A stretch of DNA of 48,976 nucleotides from Alphaproteobacteria bacterium (GTDB lineage Bacteria; Pseudomonadota; Alphaproteobacteria; Puniceispirillales; Puniceispirillaceae), in NCBI GenBank assembly GCA_016780775.1, contig JADHLI010000016.1, forward strand, positions 1-48,976, given 5' to 3'. This document shows positions 38,592 to 48,976 of this stretch, in pieces. The notes beneath the pieces are model-generated. The model was given only the letters and a program-made list of their open reading frames with translations. It made no database searches and was not told the DNA's origin. Made by a program: the position numbers and the translations under genes. The first letter of the stretch is position 1. Every line of letters starts with the position of its first letter.

Positions 38592-39343
38592 GACAGGTTG
38601 CTATTCCGGTTTTTGCGATTATCCTCTTTCTTCTATTTTGGGAGGCGCTTGTTTGGGTCAATGACTGGCCAAACTACAAGATGGCCTCACCCAGCGATAT
38701 ATGGCCTGCCTTCTGGCGTTTTAAATGGCTGTTTCTGACCTTTGGCTGGGAAACCTTATGGCGGACAGTGATCGGATTACTGATTGCTATTATAGTGGGT
38801 GTCCTGTTTGGAATGGTTATGGGGTTTTCGCGCGTGTTACGCGAAGGGCTTTATCCGCTACTGGTTGGGTTTAACGCTATCCCCAAAGCAACTGTGGTAC
38901 CCATTGTCGCGTTGATGTTCGTTGGCCAGCATAATCTGAACACCATATTGATCGCCTTTATGATTTCGTTTTTTCCGATTGCCGTTTCCGTATCTATCGG
39001 CCTGTCAACATTGGAGCCTGAATATCGCGACATCTTGCGTGCCCTTGGCGCCTCAAAACTGACGATATTCTGGAAAATCGCCCTACCCAAAACGCTGCCG
39101 GAATTTTTCGGCGCGCTGAAGGTTGCGGTAACACTTGCTTTTATTGGCACCAATTTGATGGAAATTGTCTCACCACATGGTCGCGGCCTCGGGGCCCTGT
39201 TTGACAGCGGAAAGACCAATTCTGATTATCCGCTTATGTTTGCTGTTCTAATTGCGCTGGCGATACTGGGTATAGCCCTCTATTACGTTATTGTTTTATT
39301 GGAACGTATTTTTGCAGGCTGGGCAGAACGCCAGACCGACTAA
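38588..39343 (+). CDS. ABC transporter permease (SsuC/ThiX-type)
   Basis: A 251-aa inner-membrane permease with about six helices and the EAA loop YRDILRALGASKLTIFWKIALPKTLP near residues 145-170. The family and gene order match the NMT1-type importer. It ends before two hairpins, the second being a clear terminator, so the operon has three genes. Confidence 0.9.
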   Translation: MRQVAIPVFAIILFLLFWEALVWVNDWPNYKMASPSDIWPAFWRFKWLFLTFGWETLWRTVIGLLIAIIVGVLFGMVMGFSRVLREGLYPLLVGFNAIPKATVVPIVALMFVGQHNLNTILIAFMISFFPIAVSVSIGLSTLEPEYRDILRALGASKLTIFWKIALPKTLPEFFGALKVAVTLAFIGTNLMEIVSPHGRGLGALFDSGKTNSDYPLMFAVLIALAILGIALYYVIVLLERIFAGWAERQTD

Positions 39344-39415
39344 TCATTTAGAAATAGTCACTTGCATGGATTGATACTGGCCAAATGGGGATGAAAAACA
39401 GCATCTGGCAAACAA

Positions 39416-39456
39416 TGTAAGCAGCGGCATAGCGGGACGGCTAAACCCTGCTTACA
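39416..39456. other. 9-bp inverted repeat downstream of importer operon
   Basis: TGTAAGCAG (39416-39424) and CTGCTTACA (39448-39456) are perfect inverted arms around a 23-nt centre. It lies between the permease stop and the terminator at 39474, so it would be in the 3' UTR of the importer mRNA. It could be a 3' UTR structure or part of a small RNA. Confidence 0.6.
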
Positions 39457-39473
39457 TACCCAGAATAACAAAG

Positions 39474-39507
39474 CCCCCTGTTTCTTTGGCAGGGGGATTT
39501 TTGTTTG
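39474..39507 (+). terminator. Rho-independent terminator of importer operon
   Basis: The stem CCCCCTG (39474-39480) / CAGGGGG (39490-39496) with a 9-nt loop is followed by ATTTTTGTTTG. It lies between the convergent importer operon and the minus-strand gene at 39529. Confidence 0.85.
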
Positions 39508-39528
39508 TTGGTGGAGTGTTTGTTGGTC

Positions 39529-40035
39529 TCACTGATCAATTTGACTTGTATCTAATTCGGTTATGTCAAACTTGTAATGCCTTCTACCATCACCGAAATG
39601 GTCTAATTCAATTAAAAGGCTTTGGACACCCTCATTGCTAAAACGGCTTATTAGAAATTTATCTTGAAGTAAAAAATGTTCTGAACCCCAGTCATTTAAT
39701 GCTGTAATTTCGAAAATTGTTCCCTCATTAATTTTGGCGCGAAAATTATAACGTGTCCAGCCATCTTCTAATGCCCCGTCATTAAGATTATTTGCAGAAT
39801 TTCTTAGAACAAAAAATTGGTTATTACATTGATAATATAAATAGACGACAGGATCGGAATTAGGCCATGAAAGCGGCCTATTAGGTTTTACATACTCACT
39901 CTTAATGTATTTAAAAACAGTGCCATCAAAGTCGTCTTTGTTTTCTAAATATTCCCATGCAGAAACTGGCCTCGAAATGACGGCTATTAAAAGGGCTAAA
40001 ATAAAATGCTGTAAAAGCCTATTCATTTCACTCAT
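39529..40035 (-). CDS. Hypothetical secreted protein (168 aa)
   Basis: A 168-aa protein with an N-terminal signal peptide (about residues 1-26, cleavage near VSA-WEY). The mature part is beta-rich by eye, with FFVLRNS and YNFRAKINEG segments, and no motif I recognise. It is AT-rich compared with the importer operon. The start overlaps the stop of the membrane gene at 40028 by 8 bp (ATG 40035), so the two form a unit. Confidence 0.6.
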   Translation of the reverse strand: MSEMNRLLQHFILALLIAVISRPVSAWEYLENKDDFDGTVFKYIKSEYVKPNRPLSWPNSDPVVYLYYQCNNQFFVLRNSANNLNDGALEDGWTRYNFRAKINEGTIFEITALNDWGSEHFLLQDKFLISRFSNEGVQSLLIELDHFGDGRRHYKFDITELDTSQIDQ

Positions 40036-40327
40036 CTACCGTTTTGGTGATTGATTTTCCCTTAGTCATAAGGACAATCGCACCCAGAATAATTGTACCA
40101 AGAATCCAAGCAAACCAGCCGGTCACAGCCGCCAGTCCACCACCAATGGCAGCGCCCGCCTGACAGGCAGTTGAATATTCTTCCTTCCCGCAGTCAGAAG
40201 CAACATCGCCAACTATGCCTAAATTGATGACAGTCAAATAAATCATAAAAACTTGAAATGATAAAAACAGGATTAGCCAAAACCATCCAAAAAACCCACG
40301 CTTTCTGGTTGTAATAGTTACAGACAT
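40028..40327 (-). CDS. Hypothetical two-helix membrane protein (99 aa)
   Basis: A 99-aa protein with hydrophobic segments at about residues 12-36 and 58-87, and a short loop with two Cys (VASDCGKEEYSTACQAG). The second segment is Gly- and Ala-rich. No family is recognised. It is the first gene of a two-gene minus-strand unit next to a tRNA-like remnant, so it may be cargo of, or a border to, the mobile segment. Confidence 0.6.
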   Translation of the reverse strand: MSVTITTRKRGFFGWFWLILFLSFQVFMIYLTVINLGIVGDVASDCGKEEYSTACQAGAAIGGGLAAVTGWFAWILGTIILGAIVLMTKGKSITKTVDE

Positions 40328-40448
40328 TGATTTTTTATCCTCTGAGATTGAATATTTGAAAAACGCTACCGGGGGCAGAGGGCAGCTGCCAAGCAGTTTT
40401 TAAGTACTTCACGCAGATGTGAATAAACGTTAAAGTTTTTTTAAAAGC

Positions 40449-40471
40449 AGGGGATCAAATAGGGGATCAAA
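40449..40471. repeat. Direct repeat AGGGGATCAAA, two copies
   Basis: AGGGGATCAAA occurs at 40449-40459 and 40461-40471, a 12-bp period. The pair lies about 70-90 bp from the tRNA 3'-end remnant. Integrases of the tyrosine class bind short direct repeats (arm sites) close to the att core, so these are candidate arm sites; no integrase gene is present to support it. Confidence 0.6.
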
Positions 40472-40537
40472 AATCTCAGCAACGGGGATATCTAATTAAA
40501 TTCAAGGCGTTGCAAAAAATAATTGGAGCGGCGTGCG

Positions 40538-40565
40538 AGAGGTTCGAAGCCTATTCGATGCACCA
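40538..40565 (+). other. tRNA 3'-end remnant, putative attachment site
   Basis: The stretch reads as the last part of a tRNA: T arm AGAGG-TTCGAAG-CCTAT (one mismatch in the stem), acceptor strand TCGATGC, discriminator A and CCA. The upstream 48 nt do not fold into the remaining arms and no 5' acceptor strand GCATCGA is present. A lone tRNA 3' end is the usual footprint of tyrosine-integrase insertion. The AlpA-like and primase genes start about 500 bp downstream. Confidence 0.55.
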
Positions 40566-41038
40566 CTCTGTGACTGAATCCATCTATATCAATAGCTTAT
40601 CATATAAGTAGATATGGTCAACTATCAAAACCTTACCTGCAACGTTGCCTGAACCCAGGTCCCAGGTCCAAGTTCCAACAATCGCGCTCCTCGAACCTCG
40701 GTCCGGGGTTACTGATGCTATTTGAGAAGGATGGGCAGTATTTATCGATGAGGCACCCCCCTCAATGTGGGGCTTGGTTCAGAAGTAAGGGTGCGGGGAG
40801 ATGAATGGGTAGAATTTTTGATAAGTAAATTTATTTGAAAAAAACCCTAGAGGGGGTCCACAGCATCACTTTTCCTGGGTATGGTAGGAATATCCGTGAT
40901 GAGCATAATGCGGTGTGGTTACATGATCCTTATCAAAATCATGCTGTAGTGGCGATCGCTTGCGGCCACAGCTCACAAACAGTTGCGCAGTCCTTTATCA
41001 ACTTTTTTCTGCCTTATTCAGGCAAAGGATGGCGCAAT
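40566..41038. other. Non-coding segment upstream of primase operon
   Basis: About 470 bp with no gene I can support. A near-perfect palindrome AACCTCGG-T-CCGGGGTT lies at 40694-40710 (one wobble-type mismatch) and may be an operator or replication site. A TTG-initiated frame from 40835 runs into the AlpA-like gene but its first 68 residues look non-coding. The primase operon promoter should lie here. Confidence 0.4.
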
Positions 41039-41218
41039 ATGCTCTACAAAAAATACATATCACGCAGTGAAATCTGTGAATTGTTCAATTGCAACCCTGG
41101 AACTATCCAGAAATGGGTTCTCCAAAGGGAGTTTCCTAATCCACTACCATGCCCAGCAAGGGAGCCAATTTACAATCGCGATGAAGTTGAGAGATGGATT
41201 GAGAGGCGAGGGCAATGA
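41039..41218 (+). CDS. AlpA-like HTH regulator / excisionase
   Basis: A 59-aa protein with a MerR/AlpA-like helix-turn-helix: YISRSEICELFNCNPGTIQKW, then the C-terminal PIYNRDEVERWIERRGQ that marks excisionase-like proteins. These bind DNA as regulators or directionality factors of integrated elements. ATG 41039 is preceded by AAGGATGG. The stop overlaps the primase start (ATG 41215), so both are coupled. Confidence 0.7.
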   Translation: MLYKKYISRSEICELFNCNPGTIQKWVLQREFPNPLPCPAREPIYNRDEVERWIERRGQ

Positions 41219-43344
41219 GTGATTTCAAAAATAGAAAATCCATGCTTGATATTGCCTTGCAGATATCAACTGAGTTAGGCCTTTCCGTTTTCCCATGTCG
41301 CGAAAAGGCAAAAGGGAACAAAAAGGCAAAGTCCCCCTATACCAACCGTGGCTATAAAGATGCCAGTCGAGATGAAAAACAGATCTGGTCTTGGTGGAAT
41401 AGCTTTCCAAATGCTATGGTTGGTGTCCCTACAGGCAGAGAGAACGGCATCTTTGTCGTTGATATCGATGTTGGCCAAGACAAGGACGGTGAAGCGTCTT
41501 TTAATGAGTTTGAGTTAGAAGATCCGCATACATGTCAAACAATTACAATGTCAGGTGGGCGGCACCTTATATTCGCTTATCCGGCAGAGCATGAACTCAA
41601 GAATACCGCTGGGGCACTTGGCAAAGATATCGATACCAGGGGAGATGGCGGGTACGTTATTTGGGCTGGTTCAACCTCGACAGAGGGTGCCTATTCCTAT
41701 CGCGAGGGGTTTGGGCCAGAAGTCGGATTTAATGAACTCCCACCTGCTCTGCTTGAGCGATTGACTGCTAATGGTGGTGGGTCTGCTTCGTTACCCTTTA
41801 CAGGCGCAATTCCTAATGGTCAAAGAAACAGTACCCTGTTTAAGGAGGCTGTCTCCCTAGCTAGCAAAAAGGTCGCTCCAGAAGTTATTGCACAGCATGT
41901 CATCTCTCGTTTGCAGGACTGCGAGGGTAATTTTCCAGTTGCTGAAGCTGAGCAGGTTTTGCAAAGCGCGCTGAATAGGGCTGCATCTAATACCCCGCCG
42001 TTTACTGATCTTGGTAACGCAGAACGATTTTCTACAGACCATGCCGATGTGGTTCTTTACTGCAAAGATCAACGCATTTGGTATTGCTGGGACAGTATAA
42101 AATGGACACCTGACTACAATAAGGTTCAGCAACTAGCAAAGCAGACAACACGCAACATGCTAGTGGAGTCTTCATATAGTGACGAGCATCGTTCAAAACT
42201 AAAAAAGTGGCAGCACACGTCTGAAAGCAGCAGCAGACAGAAAGCCATGATCGAACTTGCTGCATCTGATGAGCGGTTGGTTAAGCAATCGACCGATTTG
42301 GATCAGCACCTACATTTGTTCAATGCAGCAGACGGCACAATCGATTTGCGTAGCGGCGAGGTGAAGAAGCCAGACCGAACTGACCTTATTACCTGTGCTG
42401 CTAATGCAAGTATCACATCCAGTGCTAGTTGCAATAGGTGGACCCAGTTCATCAATGAAATCATGTGCGGTGACCAGAGACTTATTGCGTATCTGCAGCG
42501 ACTATGCGGTTACATGATGTTTGGTGATAGGGGCGAGCAAATAATCGTCTATCTGCAAGGTGATGGCGCAAATGGGAAGAGCGTATTTATCGATGTGCTA
42601 TCGCATGTCTTCGGTGACTATGCAGCAACTATAAGTGCGAGGGCTCTTATTGATCGAGCTAGTGGGGCCATACCAAGCGATATTGCCTCTATCGCAGGTA
42701 AACGTCTTGTGACGATGTCGGAGTTTCCAGAGCGAGTTCATATCAACACAACCACTGTAAAGTCAGTTACGGGGGGCGACAGGGTCACCGCCAGGCATCT
42801 CTACAAGGATTGGTTTGAGTTCAGACCGCAGTTCCAACTCTTATGCGCAATGAACGAACTGCCAAAAGTCGCTGAGACGGACGAAGCCTATTTGCGGCGT
42901 GTAAGGATAATACCATTCCTTAGGGTTTTCAGTCCGGCTGAGATGGATCGTAACCTCCAGGACAAACTGAAGGCAGAGGCAGACGGCATTTTGCAATGGT
43001 GTATTGAAGGAGCGCGTCTTTATCAACAGCAGGGGCTACGGCCAACTGCACGCATGGTTGAGGAATTGGAAAGATACAGACGCAGGAGTGACCCGGTTGC
43101 CCAGTTTGTTCGCGAATGTGTTACAACTGACGGCAAATACTTTCACACTATTGCTGATCTTATCAGGCTTGCACGCGAATATATGGTCCGGGAGGAGATG
43201 ACTATTCCAGATGAGGCTGCAATCAAGAAGTCTCTGATAAGGATGCTTGGCGAGACCAAGCAGCATAGAACAGAGCATGGCCGGGTAAGGGGCTACTTTG
43301 GTCTCAAGGTCTGCATGCCCATGGACGACGACCTACCGTTCTAA
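41215..43344 (+). CDS. P4/D5-type primase-helicase
   Basis: A 709-aa replication protein. Residues about 10-185 form an archaeo-eukaryotic type primase-polymerase domain, with the acidic pair D83/D85 in VVDIDVGQD and SGGRH at 113-117. A linker follows, then a D5-like N-terminal domain and an SF3/AAA+ helicase: Walker A GDGANGKS at 449-456, Walker B-type VTMSEF near 500, sensor region LLCAMNELP near 545 and RR at 561-562. Phage P4-like satellites and plasmids use this layout to start and unwind their own DNA. It points to an autonomously replicating or satellite element; an integrase and capsid genes are not visible. Confidence 0.9.
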   Translation: MSDFKNRKSMLDIALQISTELGLSVFPCREKAKGNKKAKSPYTNRGYKDASRDEKQIWSWWNSFPNAMVGVPTGRENGIFVVDIDVGQDKDGEASFNEFELEDPHTCQTITMSGGRHLIFAYPAEHELKNTAGALGKDIDTRGDGGYVIWAGSTSTEGAYSYREGFGPEVGFNELPPALLERLTANGGGSASLPFTGAIPNGQRNSTLFKEAVSLASKKVAPEVIAQHVISRLQDCEGNFPVAEAEQVLQSALNRAASNTPPFTDLGNAERFSTDHADVVLYCKDQRIWYCWDSIKWTPDYNKVQQLAKQTTRNMLVESSYSDEHRSKLKKWQHTSESSSRQKAMIELAASDERLVKQSTDLDQHLHLFNAADGTIDLRSGEVKKPDRTDLITCAANASITSSASCNRWTQFINEIMCGDQRLIAYLQRLCGYMMFGDRGEQIIVYLQGDGANGKSVFIDVLSHVFGDYAATISARALIDRASGAIPSDIASIAGKRLVTMSEFPERVHINTTTVKSVTGGDRVTARHLYKDWFEFRPQFQLLCAMNELPKVAETDEAYLRRVRIIPFLRVFSPAEMDRNLQDKLKAEADGILQWCIEGARLYQQQGLRPTARMVEELERYRRRSDPVAQFVRECVTTDGKYFHTIADLIRLAREYMVREEMTIPDEAAIKKSLIRMLGETKQHRTEHGRVRGYFGLKVCMPMDDDLPF

Positions 43345-43353
43345 ACCAAGTGG

Positions 43354-43435
43354 CACAGGTGACTCAGCAAAAAACTAACTTTTTTATATACCAGAAAAAT
43401 ATAAAAATAGTTCTAAAACTGCTGAGTCACCTGTG
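43354..43435. repeat. 82-bp hairpin element with 16-bp perfect arms
   Basis: The arms CACAGGTGACTCAGCA (43354-43369) and TGCTGAGTCACCTGTG (43420-43435) are perfect inverted repeats. The 50-nt AT-rich centre also contains a diverged inverted pair (AACTAACTTTTTTATAT and ATATAAAAATAGTT), so the whole segment could fold into a long hairpin. It sits exactly between the convergent primase and HGG-motif genes. It may be a bidirectional terminator, a replication origin or a small non-autonomous repeat. Confidence 0.9.
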
Positions 43436-43440
43436 ACAGC

Positions 43441-43800
43441 CTATCCTGAAAAACTATCATGCCAGTGCTTATCGAGTAGGCCGCCAGCGATCAAATCACG
43501 CTCCATCTGGCGTAGCTCCCTCCTGATAGCTCTTCCCAAAGCCGCATTCTCGCGCTGCTTCTCTAACTTGACCTTGGTATATTTACCGTGGCGCAGGTTG
43601 CCCTGCGAAATGCACCTTCGGCCTTCCCCGGTCCTCGCACCAGTGCTAGCGCCCCCATGCAGTCTACAGCGCCCATTCTTCTTGTTTGCAGGACGCTGGC
43701 AGCCTGTCCCCCGACGGGTCTTTGCCCCACACCTTTGCCCAGGCCAATCTGCCCCAAAACGCCATTCTAGTCCGATCTTAACGTTACCTTTTGTAAGCAT
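43441..43800 (-). CDS. HGGxSTG-motif zinc-knuckle phage-type protein
   Basis: A 119-aa basic protein. C24, C34, C45 and H48 (RCGAKTRRGTGC, then RCRLHGG) form a zinc-knuckle-like pattern, followed by HGGASTGARTGEGRR and NLRHGKYT. This HGGxSTGxxTxEG pattern is common in small proteins of proteobacterial prophages and mobile elements; its function is not settled, with DNA binding being likely. The C-terminal helix is charged. It starts at ATG 43800 behind a TATAAT-rich promoter region. Confidence 0.7.
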   Translation of the reverse strand: MLTKGNVKIGLEWRFGADWPGQRCGAKTRRGTGCQRPANKKNGRCRLHGGASTGARTGEGRRCISQGNLRHGKYTKVKLEKQRENAALGRAIRRELRQMERDLIAGGLLDKHWHDSFSG

Positions 43801-43802
43801 GA

Positions 43803-43834
43803 ATTATACCCCATTTATAGGGTATTATTATACC
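43803..43834 (-). promoter_or_regulatory. Promoter/operator of HGG-motif gene
   Basis: Two copies of GGTATAAT on the minus strand (43803-43810 and 43827-43834), plus an inverted near copy at 43821-43828 and the inverted pair ATACCC / GGGTAT, lie directly upstream of the start at 43800. The TATAAT hexamers fit a -10 box and the symmetry fits an overlapping operator. No clear -35 box is seen. Confidence 0.5.
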
Positions 43835-44046
43835 ATGACATTGGGATGCCATCTAGGCAGGTGAAACCAAGTAACAATGGGCAAATATCTGAGGTTCAAG
43901 GGCCGTGGACCGCCGTTCGGGGTGCTGTGTTAGATTACATCAATGCGAAGGTGATGCATAAATGTTTGCAGGGTGAAATAAAAACACTTCTTCTGCTGCT
44001 GACCAGTTTGTTGTTCTATTTTTCAGGATAGTTTTGGAGAACAGCG

Positions 44047-45006
44047 TTGAGCAGTTTAGAGCTTATCAATCTTGAAAAATGGTATGGGCAGACACAGGCT
44101 GTTGGCGGGGTCAACCTTCATCTGCCGACAAGTCAATATTGCTGTTTGCTTGGCCCATCGGGCTGCGGGAAAACATCACTCCTTAGAATGATAGCTGGGC
44201 ATGAACAGATTAGCGAAGGCGATGTCATTTTGGATAACAAGAATATATCCGATATTCCACCAGCCCAGCGTAGCACCTCAATGATGTTTCAAAACTACGC
44301 GCTTTTCCCCCATTTAAAGGTCATCGATAATGTCGCCTTTGCACTGAAGCTCTCAGGGGTTGGCAAAGCAGAGCGACACGAAAAAGCAATGGAAATGATT
44401 GAGAGTGTTCAGCTCAAAAATATGGCTAACCGTTACCCCAATCAATTATCTGGAGGCCAGCAACAACGTGTAGCACTAGCGAGGGCGCTTATCACCAAAC
44501 CAAAATTACTTTTGCTTGATGAACCACTCTCGGCTCTTGATCCGTTTTTACGAATTGAAATGCGTGCCGAATTAAAAGCACTTCAGCGTCAACTTGATAT
44601 CACTTTTGTACACGTCACCCACAGCCAAGAAGAGGCAATGGCTCTGTCTGACCTTGTTCTGGTCATGAATGCCGGCAAGGTTGAGCAGCAGGGCACGCCC
44701 TATGATGTGTTTACAAGACCAATAAATCGTTTTGTTGCCCAATTTATTGGCGGCCACAACGTAATTGAGATTAACGGTGCGTCAGTCTCGGTAAGAGAAG
44801 ACCGAATTAAGATTGTGGCAGGGGGGAAAGATGAAGTCACAAGTATTGAATTTTTGGGCTCTGTGGTTCGTCTGAAGGTGCGGTCATCTTCAGGAACACT
44901 GACAGTTGTTTTGTCAGATACAGAATTCGAAAAGCTAAATCTGGAATATGGCAATCCAGTAACAGCAAGCTGGTCAAAAAAGGACCAGCTCCCCCTCAAA
45001 GCATAA
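44047..45006 (+). CDS. potA: PotA-like ABC importer ATPase
   Basis: A 319-aa ABC ATPase of the polyamine/opine group. Walker A GPSGCGKT is at residues 36-43, signature LSGGQQQR near 138 and Walker B DEPLSALDPF near 160. A TOBE-like C-terminal domain covers about 245-319. The start is TTG 44047 with a TTGGAGA site 7 nt upstream; no ATG is nearby. It is the first of a four-gene importer set; the gene symbol is by family only, and the substrate may not be a polyamine. Confidence 0.85.
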   Translation: MSSLELINLEKWYGQTQAVGGVNLHLPTSQYCCLLGPSGCGKTSLLRMIAGHEQISEGDVILDNKNISDIPPAQRSTSMMFQNYALFPHLKVIDNVAFALKLSGVGKAERHEKAMEMIESVQLKNMANRYPNQLSGGQQQRVALARALITKPKLLLLDEPLSALDPFLRIEMRAELKALQRQLDITFVHVTHSQEEAMALSDLVLVMNAGKVEQQGTPYDVFTRPINRFVAQFIGGHNVIEINGASVSVREDRIKIVAGGKDEVTSIEFLGSVVRLKVRSSSGTLTVVLSDTEFEKLNLEYGNPVTASWSKKDQLPLKA

Positions 45007-45020
45007 GAAAGGATGATATT

Positions 45021-46283
45021 ATGATGAGGAAATTTAATAGAAGAACGATGCTAAAAGCAACAGGGGCCAGCATTACATTAGCTGGATTTGGATTGGCCTC
45101 CCCTGTTGTTCATTCAGCAAATGAAAAAGTGGTTCGTTATCTTGGAACCGCTACCACGATGGGCAGTGAGATAGATAAAAAACTTTTCGAAGATACCGGG
45201 ATAAAGGTGCAATATATTCCTGTCACGACTGATGAAGTGACCAAGCGTGTTCTGACCCAGCCAAATAGTTTCGATATTGTGGATACAGAGTATTTCAGCC
45301 TACCAAAGCTTGTCCCTTCAGGCAATATTTTAGGCATGGACTCAAAGCGTATCAAAGAATTTGATAACATTAGCACTACCCACACACTCGGCGAAATTGG
45401 CGGCAAAAAAATTGGTGATCAGGGAACAGCTCCTAAAAAAGTTTTCTATTTGAAAGATGAAAATTCAAAAGAATCTTCGTCAGAGCCTACAAGATGGGCA
45501 ACTTTAATCCCAACGGTATTTAACGCAGATACGCTGGGTATTCGACCTGACCTCATCAAACGGCCTATCAGTAGCTGGGCTGAATTGTTAAATCCTGAAT
45601 TCAAGGGCAAGGCCTCAATCCTGAACATTCCGTCTATTGGCATTATGGATGCGGCAATGGTTGTTGAAGCTATGGGTGAATATCAATATCCCGATAAAGG
45701 AAATATGACTCGTGATGAAATTGATATGACCATCAAAATTCTGATTGAGGCTAAGAAAGCTGGCCAGTTTAGAGCATTATGGTCAGATTTTAATGAAAGT
45801 GTAAATCTTATGGCCTCTGGCGAAGTAGTGATCCAATCTATGTGGTCGCCTGCGATTACAGCAGTTCGGACACAAGGTATCCCTTGCGTGTACCAGCCTT
45901 TGAAAGAAGGCTATCGTGCATGGGCAGTCGGCTTTGCGCTTTCAGCTGCAACAAAAGGTTATCAGGCGGATGTTTGTTATGAATTCATCAACTGGTATCT
46001 GTCAGGCTTTGTTGGTGGTTATCTCAATCGCCAAGGTTATTATTCTGCTGTTCCAAAGACTGCAAAAGAATATATGGCCGATTACGAATGGGATTACTGG
46101 ATGCTTGGCAAACCAGCCACTCAAGATATCACCGCACCAGATGGCAAAAAGCTTGCTGGAGCAGGTGAAGTGCGTGATGGCGGCTCATTCGAAGCTCGTA
46201 TGGGCGGCGTTGCCTGTTGGAACGCAACAATGGACGAAAACCGTTACATGGTGCGTAAGTGGAACGAGTTTGTAGCGGCATAA
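45021..46283 (+). CDS. Tat-type extracellular solute-binding protein (PotD family)
   Basis: A 420-aa periplasmic binding protein. The N-terminus NRRTMLKATGASITLAG is a twin-arginine signal, with cleavage near residue 33, so the protein is probably exported folded. The remainder is of the PotD/spermidine-putrescine type (family 1 solute-binding), longer than E. coli PotD (about 350). Substrate is unknown; the linked racemase suggests an amino-acid-like or ureide compound. Confidence 0.85.
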   Translation: MMRKFNRRTMLKATGASITLAGFGLASPVVHSANEKVVRYLGTATTMGSEIDKKLFEDTGIKVQYIPVTTDEVTKRVLTQPNSFDIVDTEYFSLPKLVPSGNILGMDSKRIKEFDNISTTHTLGEIGGKKIGDQGTAPKKVFYLKDENSKESSSEPTRWATLIPTVFNADTLGIRPDLIKRPISSWAELLNPEFKGKASILNIPSIGIMDAAMVVEAMGEYQYPDKGNMTRDEIDMTIKILIEAKKAGQFRALWSDFNESVNLMASGEVVIQSMWSPAITAVRTQGIPCVYQPLKEGYRAWAVGFALSAATKGYQADVCYEFINWYLSGFVGGYLNRQGYYSAVPKTAKEYMADYEWDYWMLGKPATQDITAPDGKKLAGAGEVRDGGSFEARMGGVACWNATMDENRYMVRKWNEFVAA

Positions 46284-46350
46284 ATTTTAAATAGGTGGTC
46301 TGCGATTACACAGGAACGGTTGCAGACCACTCAATTGTTAAGTCAATTTG

Positions 46351-47241
46351 ATGAGCTTTGATATGTCCATTCCCAGACGGCTTGTTCCTCTGATATTGTC
46401 CCTTCCTTTTGCGACAGTTATTTTCGCCTTCTTCATTATTCCATTGGCTCTCGTGATTATGGTGAGCTTCTGGGATTACAATTCCTATTCCATTATTCCT
46501 GATTTTATTTTTACGAATTATGAGGATATTTTTTATGGCTGTATAAAAAGCCTGCCTGATTTATGCACCTCCTTCGCCACATATCTTTCTAGCCTAAAAT
46601 TTGTCTTTATCGTTTGGCTCATCACGCTTGTTATAGGTTTTTTAGTCGCTCTTTTTCTAGCGTTCTGTGTTTCAACATTGCAGATGCAAGTAGTTTTATT
46701 TCTGCTATGTACAATCCCATTTTGGACATCGAATGTAATACGGATGATATCTTGGATTCCACTGTTAGGAAGAAATGGTTTGGTTAATTCTACTCTTCAG
46801 GATATGGGCTTGATAGAAGCACCATTTGAATGGCTTTTATATTCCCAATTTTCTGTTGTTTTAGCCTTTGTGCACCTCTATGTCCTGTTTATGGTCGTTC
46901 CCATTTTTAATTCGATGATGCGGATTGATCGATCTTTGCTAGAAGCCGCACACGATGCTGGAGCGACAACATGGCAGACTCTCACAAATATAATCATCCC
47001 TCTATGCAGGCCAGGGATAATCATTGGGTCTATTTTTGTAATCACCATTGTCATGGGGGATTTCCTAACCATTGGCGTTATGGGAGGGCAGCAAATTCCA
47101 TCTGTGGGAAAAATTATAAATGTTGAAATGACCTATCTTCAGTTTCCAGCTGCGGCCGCTAATGCTGTGATACTTATCATTGTTACTTTAATGATTATCT
47201 TTGCAATGACCAAGCTGGTCGATATTCGAAAAGAGCTATAA
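46351..47241 (+). CDS. potB: PotB-like ABC permease
   Basis: A 296-aa inner-membrane permease with about six helices and the EAA loop LLEAAHDAGATTWQTLTNII near residues 190-210. I use ATG 46351; a TTG one codon upstream also fits. A gap of 67 bp after the binding-protein gene contains a GGTGGTCTGC / GCAGACCACT inverted pair (46291-46332 region), probably a stem-loop. It abuts the next permease gene (stop TAA then ATG). Confidence 0.85.
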   Translation: MSFDMSIPRRLVPLILSLPFATVIFAFFIIPLALVIMVSFWDYNSYSIIPDFIFTNYEDIFYGCIKSLPDLCTSFATYLSSLKFVFIVWLITLVIGFLVALFLAFCVSTLQMQVVLFLLCTIPFWTSNVIRMISWIPLLGRNGLVNSTLQDMGLIEAPFEWLLYSQFSVVLAFVHLYVLFMVVPIFNSMMRIDRSLLEAAHDAGATTWQTLTNIIIPLCRPGIIIGSIFVITIVMGDFLTIGVMGGQQIPSVGKIINVEMTYLQFPAAAANAVILIIVTLMIIFAMTKLVDIRKEL

Positions 47242-48135
47242 ATGATTAATCGAAATTTCAGAATAATGCTTGGCTTGTTTTTTTCCCTTTTCATAATTTT
47301 TTTATACGGGCCAACCATATCTATTCTGGTGTTATCTTTTCAAGGCCCGGAGGGCGGTCTTACATTTCCCATGCGTGGCTTTTCAACATTTTGGTTTGAA
47401 TCGCTCTTTGATGGCGTTGGTGTCATAGATATATGGGGCGCTTTTGGGCGTTCAATCAGACTGGGTTTGGTTGTGATGGTCCTTACTGTAATCCTTAGCT
47501 TATGCGCAGGTATGGCATTTAGAAAACATTTTGCCCTATCCGCATTTTTATTCTACGCCACCATCTCATCTCTTATCGTCCCATCAATTGTCATCAGTCT
47601 TGGCGTTGCACTTGAGTTCAGAATTCTAGATGACATCATAAAATATGTTGGTGGGAATATGCAGATACAATGGATAATAAATGACTTCAGAACTACAATG
47701 GGTCTTTTTACTTCAGGTTTAGGGGCACAGCTGACCTGGACCCTGCCCTTTGGCTTGCTGATTATGTTTGCAGTATTTAACCGTTTTGATCCCTCTTATG
47801 AGGAGGCCGCTCGTGATTTAGGCGCCGGACCATGGCAGACATTCAAAGAGGCCGTACTTCCAATTATTGCCCCTTCGTTAATAGGTGTTGCCTTATTTGG
47901 TTTTACATTGAGTTATGATGAAATCGCGCGATCCTCTCAAGCAATAGGCGGTCTGAATACTTTGCCGCTGGAATTGCGTGGTTTGACCACAACGGTTACA
48001 GATCCAACTATTTATGCACTAGGTACATTAACAACAGCGGTTAGTTTTTGTGCGATTTTCCTCTTCTTAACCTTGTTTTTCATTCTGCGCCGGCGAACCA
48101 GCAAACGGCCACCCCAAGAAAGCCTTCCATCATGA
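47242..48135 (+). CDS. potC: PotC-like ABC permease
   Basis: A 297-aa permease with about six helices and the EAA loop YEEAARDLGAGPWQTFKEAV near residues 185-205. It starts directly after the PotB-like stop codon and overlaps the racemase gene by 4 bp (ATGA), so the whole importer and the racemase are translationally coupled. Confidence 0.85.
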   Translation: MINRNFRIMLGLFFSLFIIFLYGPTISILVLSFQGPEGGLTFPMRGFSTFWFESLFDGVGVIDIWGAFGRSIRLGLVVMVLTVILSLCAGMAFRKHFALSAFLFYATISSLIVPSIVISLGVALEFRILDDIIKYVGGNMQIQWIINDFRTTMGLFTSGLGAQLTWTLPFGLLIMFAVFNRFDPSYEEAARDLGAGPWQTFKEAVLPIIAPSLIGVALFGFTLSYDEIARSSQAIGGLNTLPLELRGLTTTVTDPTIYALGTLTTAVSFCAIFLFLTLFFILRRRTSKRPPQESLPS

Positions 48136-48785
48136 CATTGATTGCGTTTATCAACCCGAATTCTACAACTGAGATGACAGAAAGCTGTGTTCGTGCAGGA
48201 AGGGCAAGTTTGATCCCAGGTATGCAGCTTACGGGTTTTACCAACCTAGATGGGCCGTCCTCTATACAAGGTGCAGCTGATGGCGAAACTGCTGTGCCCG
48301 GCCTGCTTTCCCTGATTGAGGCCAACGAACATATGGAAGGGTTTATCATAGGCTGTTTTGATAATACCGGTCTAGATGAAGCGCGCAAATTAACTAACAA
48401 GCCGGTGATTGGGATTGGTCAGGCAGCCTATCACATGGCCGCTTTGAACAGCGAAAGATTTGTGGTCTTAACAACCCTTGATGTATCTGTCCCGGTTATA
48501 AAGGAAAATATTGAAGAGTTGGGTTTTGCAAGATGGTGTGAGGATGTGCAGGCTAGTGGCGTCCCAGTACTTCAACTTGAATTTCAGCCTGAAATTGCAG
48601 TTCCAAAAGTTAGAAAAGCGATAAACAAGATTAAAAAACAATTTCCTGAAGCTGCTGTTGTGCTGGGCTGCGCCGGAATGACTATTATTAAATCTGAATT
48701 ACTGGATCGTCAAAAAACGGTGCAGTTGATCGATCCTGTTACCTCAGCAATTCGGCTTATGTGTGCGGCGATAAAAGAGGTTTGA
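48132..48785 (+). CDS. Asp/Glu/hydantoin racemase family protein
   Basis: A 217-aa racemase of the hydantoin/allantoin subgroup. The two catalytic cysteines are C75 (in IGCFDNTG) and C180 (in LGCAGM), the usual two-base pair of cofactor-independent racemases. N-terminal FINPNSTTEMTE matches the family's INPNSS motif. I use ATG 48132, which overlaps the permease stop (ATGA); an in-frame extension to 48048 lies within the permease gene. Coupling to the importer suggests it acts on the imported compound. Confidence 0.85.
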   Translation: MTLIAFINPNSTTEMTESCVRAGRASLIPGMQLTGFTNLDGPSSIQGAADGETAVPGLLSLIEANEHMEGFIIGCFDNTGLDEARKLTNKPVIGIGQAAYHMAALNSERFVVLTTLDVSVPVIKENIEELGFARWCEDVQASGVPVLQLEFQPEIAVPKVRKAINKIKKQFPEAAVVLGCAGMTIIKSELLDRQKTVQLIDPVTSAIRLMCAAIKEV

Positions 48786-48976
48786 AGGTGGAGAAAGGGT
48801 TTGTCCCATGGACGGTATGAAAGTGCCAAAGCTGCAATTTATCCATTGTCATGTTTCCAACGAGCAGGAAAAATAAAATAGTGCTGAATTTTATGCATCA
48901 GGGGTAGATAATTTTAGCAGTATAGGATGATGTTTAGAGGCTGTACTAATAATCAAGACATTTTTATTTGTCCAAA
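48786..48976. other. Right-edge segment without a recognised gene
   Basis: The last 191 bp hold no gene I can support. A 22-codon frame from ATG 48808 ends quickly at TAA. The region is AT-rich at the end. Further genes of the importer operon could start beyond the window. Confidence 0.5.

Follow-up and report, generated by a model that had tools for sequence, protein, structure and literature searches.

An apparently integrase-less element at a contig end reads as one end of a two-part, tRNA-targeting island of the SAR116 order

P4 satellites carry an AlpA-type regulator together with a P4-type primase-helicase, and phage-inducible islands with their own small terminase are also known. In yeast, the 2-micron circle is halved by inverted recombinase sites, and the recombinase is encoded in one of the halves. 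SAR116 is an abundant marine lineage. According to excerpts of their description, PICMI satellites of the Vibrionaceae encode an integrase, AlpA and a DUF5906 primase, are packaged as concatemers and sit at fis (PMC10803314). Here we analyze an element in one contig of a SAR116 genome (Alphaproteobacteria bacterium, Puniceispirillaceae; assembly GCA_016780775.1, contig JADHLI010000016.1). The window is this whole contig (C40; 48,976 nucleotides), from an assembly of 2.2 Mb in 44 contigs; contigs are given C-numbers, the genomes of relatives G-numbers, and the genome of the window is G000. An earlier note, made from the letters of the window, had described a small integrase-less element beside a tRNA remnant, with an AlpA-like helix-turn-helix protein, a primase-helicase, a hairpin and an HGGxSTG protein (hereafter HGG). 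Our analysis indicates that this element forms one end of something larger, an integrated island of the SAR116 order that targets tRNA genes and is interrupted here by a contig break.

The last 139 bases of the window are identical to C37:1-139, and a DNA search of the genome with window positions 43850-48976 returned the start of C37 as the only other match. In the joined contigs, a repeat at the element's end in the window, termed R, has an inverted copy at C37:553-347 (E=2e-100; Table 1), and a second inverted pair, termed L, is formed by C37:535-625 and C37:5264-5174 (91 bp, 96.7%), the latter reaching into tRNA-Gly(tcc) (C37:5248-5321). Beside this tRNA gene lies a minus-strand integrase gene (C37:4017-5162) encoding a 381-aa protein with DUF6538 and Phage_integrase (PF00589) domains. 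The joined order is tRNA-Gly(tcc)–core–L–[A]–L'–inverted core–R'–[B]–R–core–flank, where A is a 4.7-kb integrase module bracketed by the L pair and ending at the tRNA gene, and B is an 8.9-kb cargo and replicon module. From R', B holds the racemase and transporter genes, HGG, the hairpin, the primase-helicase and the AlpA-like gene, and then R. The element seemed integrase-less and small because the contig ends there, with the partner repeat and the integrase on C37; a lost integrase and a minimal size can no longer be maintained for an element that crosses onto C37 and carries cargo. The other four genes of module A read as a LacI-type regulator and as phytanoyl-CoA-dioxygenase-like, PanB-like and AhpD-like genes. 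No mention of DUF6538 was found in the open-access literature searched. The genome has a second such island (C14, 9680-12008), located at tRNA-Arg(acg), with an integrase 87% identical to the one at tRNA-Gly(tcc), which places closely related integrases at different tRNA genes of one genome.

We refer to the core at the tRNA as att1, the core at the internal A/B junction as att2, and the core at the far end as att3. A 16-bp repeat is present at att1 and att3 of the joined contigs, so that the integrase lies by a tRNA gene whose 3' end recurs on the far side, as expected of a tRNA-integrative element. On the minus strand of the window (40548-40524), the last 14 nt are common with tRNA-Gly(tcc). 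The earlier note was right to see a tRNA 3' end here but took it from the wrong strand: the plus-strand stretch at 40538-40565 matched none of the 29 tRNAs of the genome, the best having six mismatches in the last 20 nt, and it was ruled out as the target. None of the 29 fits the GCATCGA...TCGATGC ends proposed for that tRNA, which is thereby refuted by the note's own test; a different tRNA, read from the opposite strand, does fit. The second att copy that the note had proposed to look for lies on C37, at tRNA-Gly(tcc).

The R repeat is a recurrent feature of the order. Another copy (77%) was found at the end of C14, and the region around R was matched in all seven congeners, in some of which the match was confined to the end of the neighboring permease gene. 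The conserved R motif (Table 1), allowing at most one mismatch, was found in 27 of the 136 order genomes, and the reversed motif, used as a control, in none of the genomes listed. Beyond the order no R motif was seen: genomes of the class matched in 4 of 385 cases, all in the window's family. Among 46 R-motif sites with at most two mismatches, 45 had room for the adjoining sequence, and 39 of these 45 continued in one pattern, a TCGAA-type sequence and a core ending in CA; of the six sites missing this pattern, some resemble variants. A crossover within the TTCGAA palindrome was considered as the cause of the inversion and rejected, as, judged by eye, the blocks that att1 and att3 have in common are positioned downstream of TTCGAA; the spacing from TTCGAA to the core also differs between the tRNA and att2/att3 in most islands. 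An Rfam scan of window 39000-48976 gave no matches at the gathering score, and neither the hairpin nor the R arm was accepted as an Rfam family.

The same layout was then sought by scanning 48 stretches, the majority selected because of an R motif or HGG, for inverted repeats, replicon genes, tRNAs and integrases. Nine of them showed both R ends: the window's own island, G082:C1, G087:C22, G089:C28, G103:C6, G119:C1, G077:C1, G119:C3 and G124:C1. The two-part layout with its integrase is evident in the assembled sequences, where all nine islands follow the order tRNA–core–L–[integrase]–L'–core'–R'–[cargo, often replicon]–R–core, with inverted R repeats of 141-320 bp (91-100% identity) and adjacent inverted L repeats of 57-101 bp (82-100%) around the integrase. 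The tRNAs at the integrase end are Gly(tcc) twice, Gly(gcc), Asn(gtt) twice, Arg(acg) and Leu(cag); no tRNA was seen on the stretches scanned for G087 and G089:C28. The R arm of G119:C3 is of a different sequence, without the R motif. The first R pair is convergent in 8/8 stretches with at least two R motifs, one of these being our own joined pair, and att1 and att3 have a common stretch of 14-23 bp in eight of the nine islands. Two further islands, that of C14 at tRNA-Arg(acg) and that of G089:C78 at tRNA-Gly(tcc), have an L pair and one R only.

At the internal junction, the core is bordered by R towards the T-loop and by L towards the CCA end, which makes att2 a complete attP-like site (R–core–L) in inverted orientation. 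The att2 core equals the att1 core in 7/9 islands, with one mismatch to the tRNA in our own. In G082, att1 and att3 are Gly-type and att2 is Arg-type; in G087, an Arg-type att1 is combined with att2 and att3 cores of another, Phe-like tRNA. The AlpA-like gene adjoins att2 in G077 and G124 and att3 in our own island and G119:C3, and B therefore occurs in both orientations.

Some related arrangements were more complex. G087:C22 is a three-part island, with a cargo module between two integrase modules that have different integrases and different L arms, and G077 (C1:1660001-1702000) is a nested island at one tRNA-Arg with three R copies (one plus, two minus) and two HGG genes. An inner segment of the repeat family, at G004:C67 1501-1678, adjoins a complete tRNA-Ser(gga). 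In the window's own genome, promoter-side sequence of an HGG-type right end is fused to an inverted half of R (C30:74768-74886), followed by insertion sequence-like DNA at the contig end; this may be a collapsed second element.

The genes next to R in module B are those of a replicon. The AlpA-like gene lies directly upstream of the primase-helicase gene, and its product matches a PHROG of excisionases and regulators (E=2.3e-7). A helix-turn-helix is present, as had been noted, at an HTH_17 (PF12728) score of 26.2 bits (E=9.4e-6), below the Pfam cut-off of 27. The primase-helicase was correctly described as a 709-aa P4/D5-type protein, with the domains listed in Table 1. It has one match in its own genome and is matched in 19/136 order genomes, its own included (E up to 1e-10), the closest being that of G074 (82% identical), where the hairpin and the convergent HGG gene are both kept. 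No close relatives of the primase were found in viral contigs, and phage and plasmid collections yielded only primases below 60% identity. The hairpin is likewise real (19-nt arms, 95% complementary, 50 nt between them). It is kept beside the related primase in G074 and G116, and TGGCACAGGTGACTCA is common to the window, G074 and G116. In several elements, the space from the replicase stop to HGG holds short repeats, inverted or direct, that differ by replicase type. From these type-specific repeats and the shared TGGCACAGGTGACTCA, we read this region as a candidate replication origin.

The HGGxSTG protein is also confirmed by its family assignment (Table 1). HGG matches were found in 48/136 order genomes (E up to 1e-5) and at 62 viral loci; many named records with HGG relatives are titled SAR116, hence the name used here for the order, and others bear the titles Rhodobacteraceae, Rhodospirillaceae and further names. 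Ten proteins from phage HGG loci were compared with PHROGs: seven downstream neighbors, two HGG proteins and one portal protein. The genes just downstream of phage HGG matched large-terminase PHROGs in 7/7 cases, some of them with a PHROG of unassigned function on top and the large terminase lower, and both phage HGG proteins matched a small-terminase PHROG. An open reading frame of at least 250 codons lies within 1.8 kb downstream of HGG at 58 of the 62 viral loci. By resemblance to these phage proteins, HGG is a candidate small-terminase-like protein. By sequence, HGG found nothing in the PDB below E=0.3; its predicted model is of middling confidence (pLDDT 77, pTM 0.43), and no mention of HGGxSTG was found in the open-access literature searched.

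HGG replicons also occur in another setting. In G075:C12 (6550-10434), G119:C4 and G124:937001, the order is tRNA–C13–AlpA–primase–HGG beside complete tRNA genes, with C13 in the integrase's place and no recognized integrase. C13 (here a gene family, 203-240 aa) gave nothing convincing in Pfam, PHROGs or PADLOC. These elements, and those of G022 and G049, have no R motif and no such paired arms.

Table 1. Features of the window at and inside the island end; positions are those of the window
Feature	Position	Strand	Remarks
Two short direct repeats	40449..40471		Outside the element, in the flank past the core; read by eye
Terminal repeat R of cargo/replicon module B	40522..40728		Inverted partner C37:347-553, 98.6% over 207 bp
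att core, tRNA-Gly(tcc) 3' end	40524..40539	-	One mismatch to C37:5248-5321
tRNA-3'-end-like stretch inside R	40538..40565	+	Faces the core around a shared TTCGAA; fits 0/29 own tRNAs
Conserved R motif GGTCAACTATCAAAACCTTACC	40616..40637	+	In 27/136 order genomes (up to one mismatch)
AlpA/excisionase-like helix-turn-helix protein	40835..41218	+	Domain at residues 72-126; true start may be further in
Primase-helicase, 709 aa	41215..43344	+	Prim-Pol, PriCT_1, D5_N, DUF5906; P4-family primase C-terminus (TIGR01613)
Inverted repeat (hairpin) between convergent primase and HGG genes	43351..43438		Candidate replication origin
HGGxSTG protein, candidate small-terminase-like	43441..43800	-	NCBIfam HGG_STG
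ABC transporter ATPase, cargo	44047..45006	+	Sequence reading; tblastn similarity to other ABC ATPase genes
Extracellular solute-binding protein (SBP_bac_8), cargo	45021..46283	+	Family scan
Two ABC permease-like genes, cargo	46348-47241, 47242-48135	+	Sequence reading
Asp/Glu/hydantoin racemase family protein, cargo	48048..48785	+	Family scan
Contig end	48838..48976		Equals C37:1-139; element runs on to R' (C37:347-553), integrase module and tRNA-Gly(tcc)

The direct repeats that the earlier note had placed within the element are visible by eye but lie outside it, and a repeat search with a 14-nt minimum did not list them. At the G077 island, a similar repeat pair is located past the core and ahead of a different integrase-like gene; the pair in the window may be a remnant of another integrase's arm sites. 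Between the permease gene of the flank and the element, window 39529-40327 holds two small minus-strand genes without assigned function, one of which encodes a 99-aa protein matching PHROG 6586, also of unassigned function (E=4.6e-8).

A search for empty sites, as the earlier note had advised, yielded near-empty sites for another island at the same tRNA but none for the window's own. The tRNA-side flank of the G082 island matched 15 of the 16 genomes of that genus, G082 included, and 11 stretches were compared with this island, nine of them fetched for that purpose. In G082, 16 kb separate tRNA-Gly(tcc) from the far flank; in the near-empty sites this flank follows about 0.76 kb (G092:C6) or 2.7 kb (G088:C4) after the tRNA, with the near flank on the tRNA's other side. 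G087:C3 (385 bp) and G085:C4 (1.4 kb) have only the tRNA and the far flank together, the near flank being matched on other contigs. Of the remaining stretches, G084 has a smaller island with one R, those of G078 and G086 stop at the tRNA, those of G080 and G079 have no far flank before the contig end, G089:C78 carries its own island, and G089:C28 is without a tRNA. At the site of the window's island, four genus-mates have an xdhC-like gene (sequence reading) after the permease.

We consider it probable that the element is an integrated two-part, tRNA-targeting island with an integrase half, A, and a cargo and replicon half, B, each with its own inverted arms. The outer direct cores would be recombined by the DUF6538 tyrosine integrase together with the AlpA-like protein, the latter serving as excisionase, so that B would move together with A and the released circle would have two attP-like sites in opposite orientation. 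The primase-helicase could replicate this circle from the repeats beside its gene, and HGG, acting like a phage small terminase, might direct the copies into helper-phage capsids. The inverted sites would be expected to permit flipping of B and to maintain the similarity of the paired arms.

Several points weigh against this interpretation. Excision, the circle, replication, packaging and flipping are steps that we infer from sequence, as we do the life cycle of a satellite and whatever role the inverted site may have, and the C40–C37 join is based on the end overlap and agreement with relatives rather than on reads. The integrase starts beside the tRNA in all L-pair islands that show both (eight, and also G089:C78, which is in two fragments); A was not seen inverted and so does not flip freely. 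Single-R loci with a core matching a nearby tRNA and no internal R, namely G105:C7 (no integrase found) and G080:C54 (a diverged integrase), indicate that one-part islands exist too. The exact R motif was found in no viral contig. For packaging, the window's HGG protein has two PHROGs of unassigned function as its top matches and a small-terminase PHROG third (E=1.3e-4), it is shorter (119 aa) than the phage proteins (174-224 aa), and a structure search with its predicted fold gave no PDB match (none at E<5).

Further observations that sit uneasily with two fixed halves suit a cargo-cassette system, in which R-bounded B modules are swapped among A modules and the AlpA–primase–HGG replicon is itself a passenger. 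B modules range from 7.7 to 34 kb, with gene content varying between the islands listed. Those of G087, G089:C28 and G119:C1 have no recognized replicon gene and hold genes read as metabolic, while the 34-kb B of G103 has its replicase and HGG far in the interior and not at an R end, and HGG replicons are also found without R/L arms. However, wherever an AlpA-like protein, replicase and HGG are all present, the set lies directly inside an R end (4/4: our own island and G077, G119:C3 and G124), like a fixed part, and we regard the cassette account as possible but doubtful.

An origin from two unrelated elements that came together at a single tRNA, with homologous recombination rearranging them and leaving the inverted att as a functionless accident, seems to us unlikely: A and B have the same polarity in 9/9 islands, whose tRNA genes, where seen, are those for Gly, Asn, Arg and Leu, and both att2 arms match arms of the same island. 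The idea draws on the existence of nested and three-part islands (G077 and G087:C22), on the att2 cores of G082 and G087, which come from a different tRNA than att1, and on the near-identical long repeats, which would favor homologous recombination. A more elaborate form of the two-part island, quite improbable in our judgment, would have the circle work as an equivalent, in bacteria, of the 2-micron circle; flipping of A against B by the integrase during primase-driven replication would convert theta into rolling replication and produce concatemers for HGG-mediated packaging, and there would be two landing sites where the cores differ (G082, G087). The minimal or decayed P4-type satellite of the earlier note, with its integrase lost or mobilized in trans, is very improbable and was rejected, since although the window alone contains no integrase and the three C13 elements show that HGG elements occur by tRNAs without a recognized one, the integrase and R partner lie on the adjoining C37, which contradicts decay if the join holds, and the AlpA-like, primase and HGG frames are all open. 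What stands of that proposal is a mobile element that resembles a satellite, is associated with a tRNA and encodes an AlpA-like protein, a P4/D5-type primase and HGG.

The two-part island that we favor has consequences beyond this locus. Its layout, with an inverted internal att, is unusual: no description of it was found in the titles and abstract openings of the open-access literature searched, and as far as such searches reach, a second, inverted attP-like site inside one element appears to be undescribed. Convergent R motifs with neighboring paired L arms provide a simple signature for finding complete islands, and the layout yields a concrete, testable prediction of the form of the excised DNA. 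Since the islands carry transporter and other metabolic genes and occupy several tRNA genes across the order, they are likely to be a route of gene flow for SAR116. The case also illustrates that a contig end can create an apparently integrase-less element.

Among described systems, P4 satellites resemble the island in their AlpA-like regulator and in the primase, whose C-terminus is of the P4 family (TIGR01613), and differ from its two-part att layout; no match to Psu/Sid-type capsid or antitermination genes came from the proteins scanned, a set without the ATPase and permeases. Like islands with their own small terminase, it encodes a TerS-like protein, HGG, with phage relatives whose genes immediately precede those of large terminases; the similarity of HGG to annotated TerS families is only distant, and no helper of the island was identified. 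Relative to the 2-micron circle, the island's circle would be a deduced form, the enzyme is an integrase, and A was not seen inverted. Excerpts on archaeal genomes describe inversions tied to tyrosine recombinases and integrated elements, as here, but between separate elements or chromosomal segments and not within one element (PMC8371274). Tycheposons, in a description from the Methylophilaceae, are likewise islands of aquatic bacteria that border on tRNA genes, encode a tyrosine recombinase and carry cargo related to nutrients, whereas the excerpts of this description mention no inverted internal att or paired inverted arms (PMC10872708). With PICMI satellites the island has in common an integrase (PF00589), an AlpA-like protein and a DUF5906 primase. 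As far as the excerpts of their description go, AlpA is recognized there by PF05930 or PF12728, against a PF12728 score of 26.2 bits and a cut-off of 27 here, and the PICMI primase combines DUF3987 with DUF5906, whereas that of the island has Prim-Pol and D5_N in DUF3987's place; the island also sits at tRNA-Gly(tcc) rather than at fis, is built in two parts, and carries HGG and metabolic cargo (PMC10803314).

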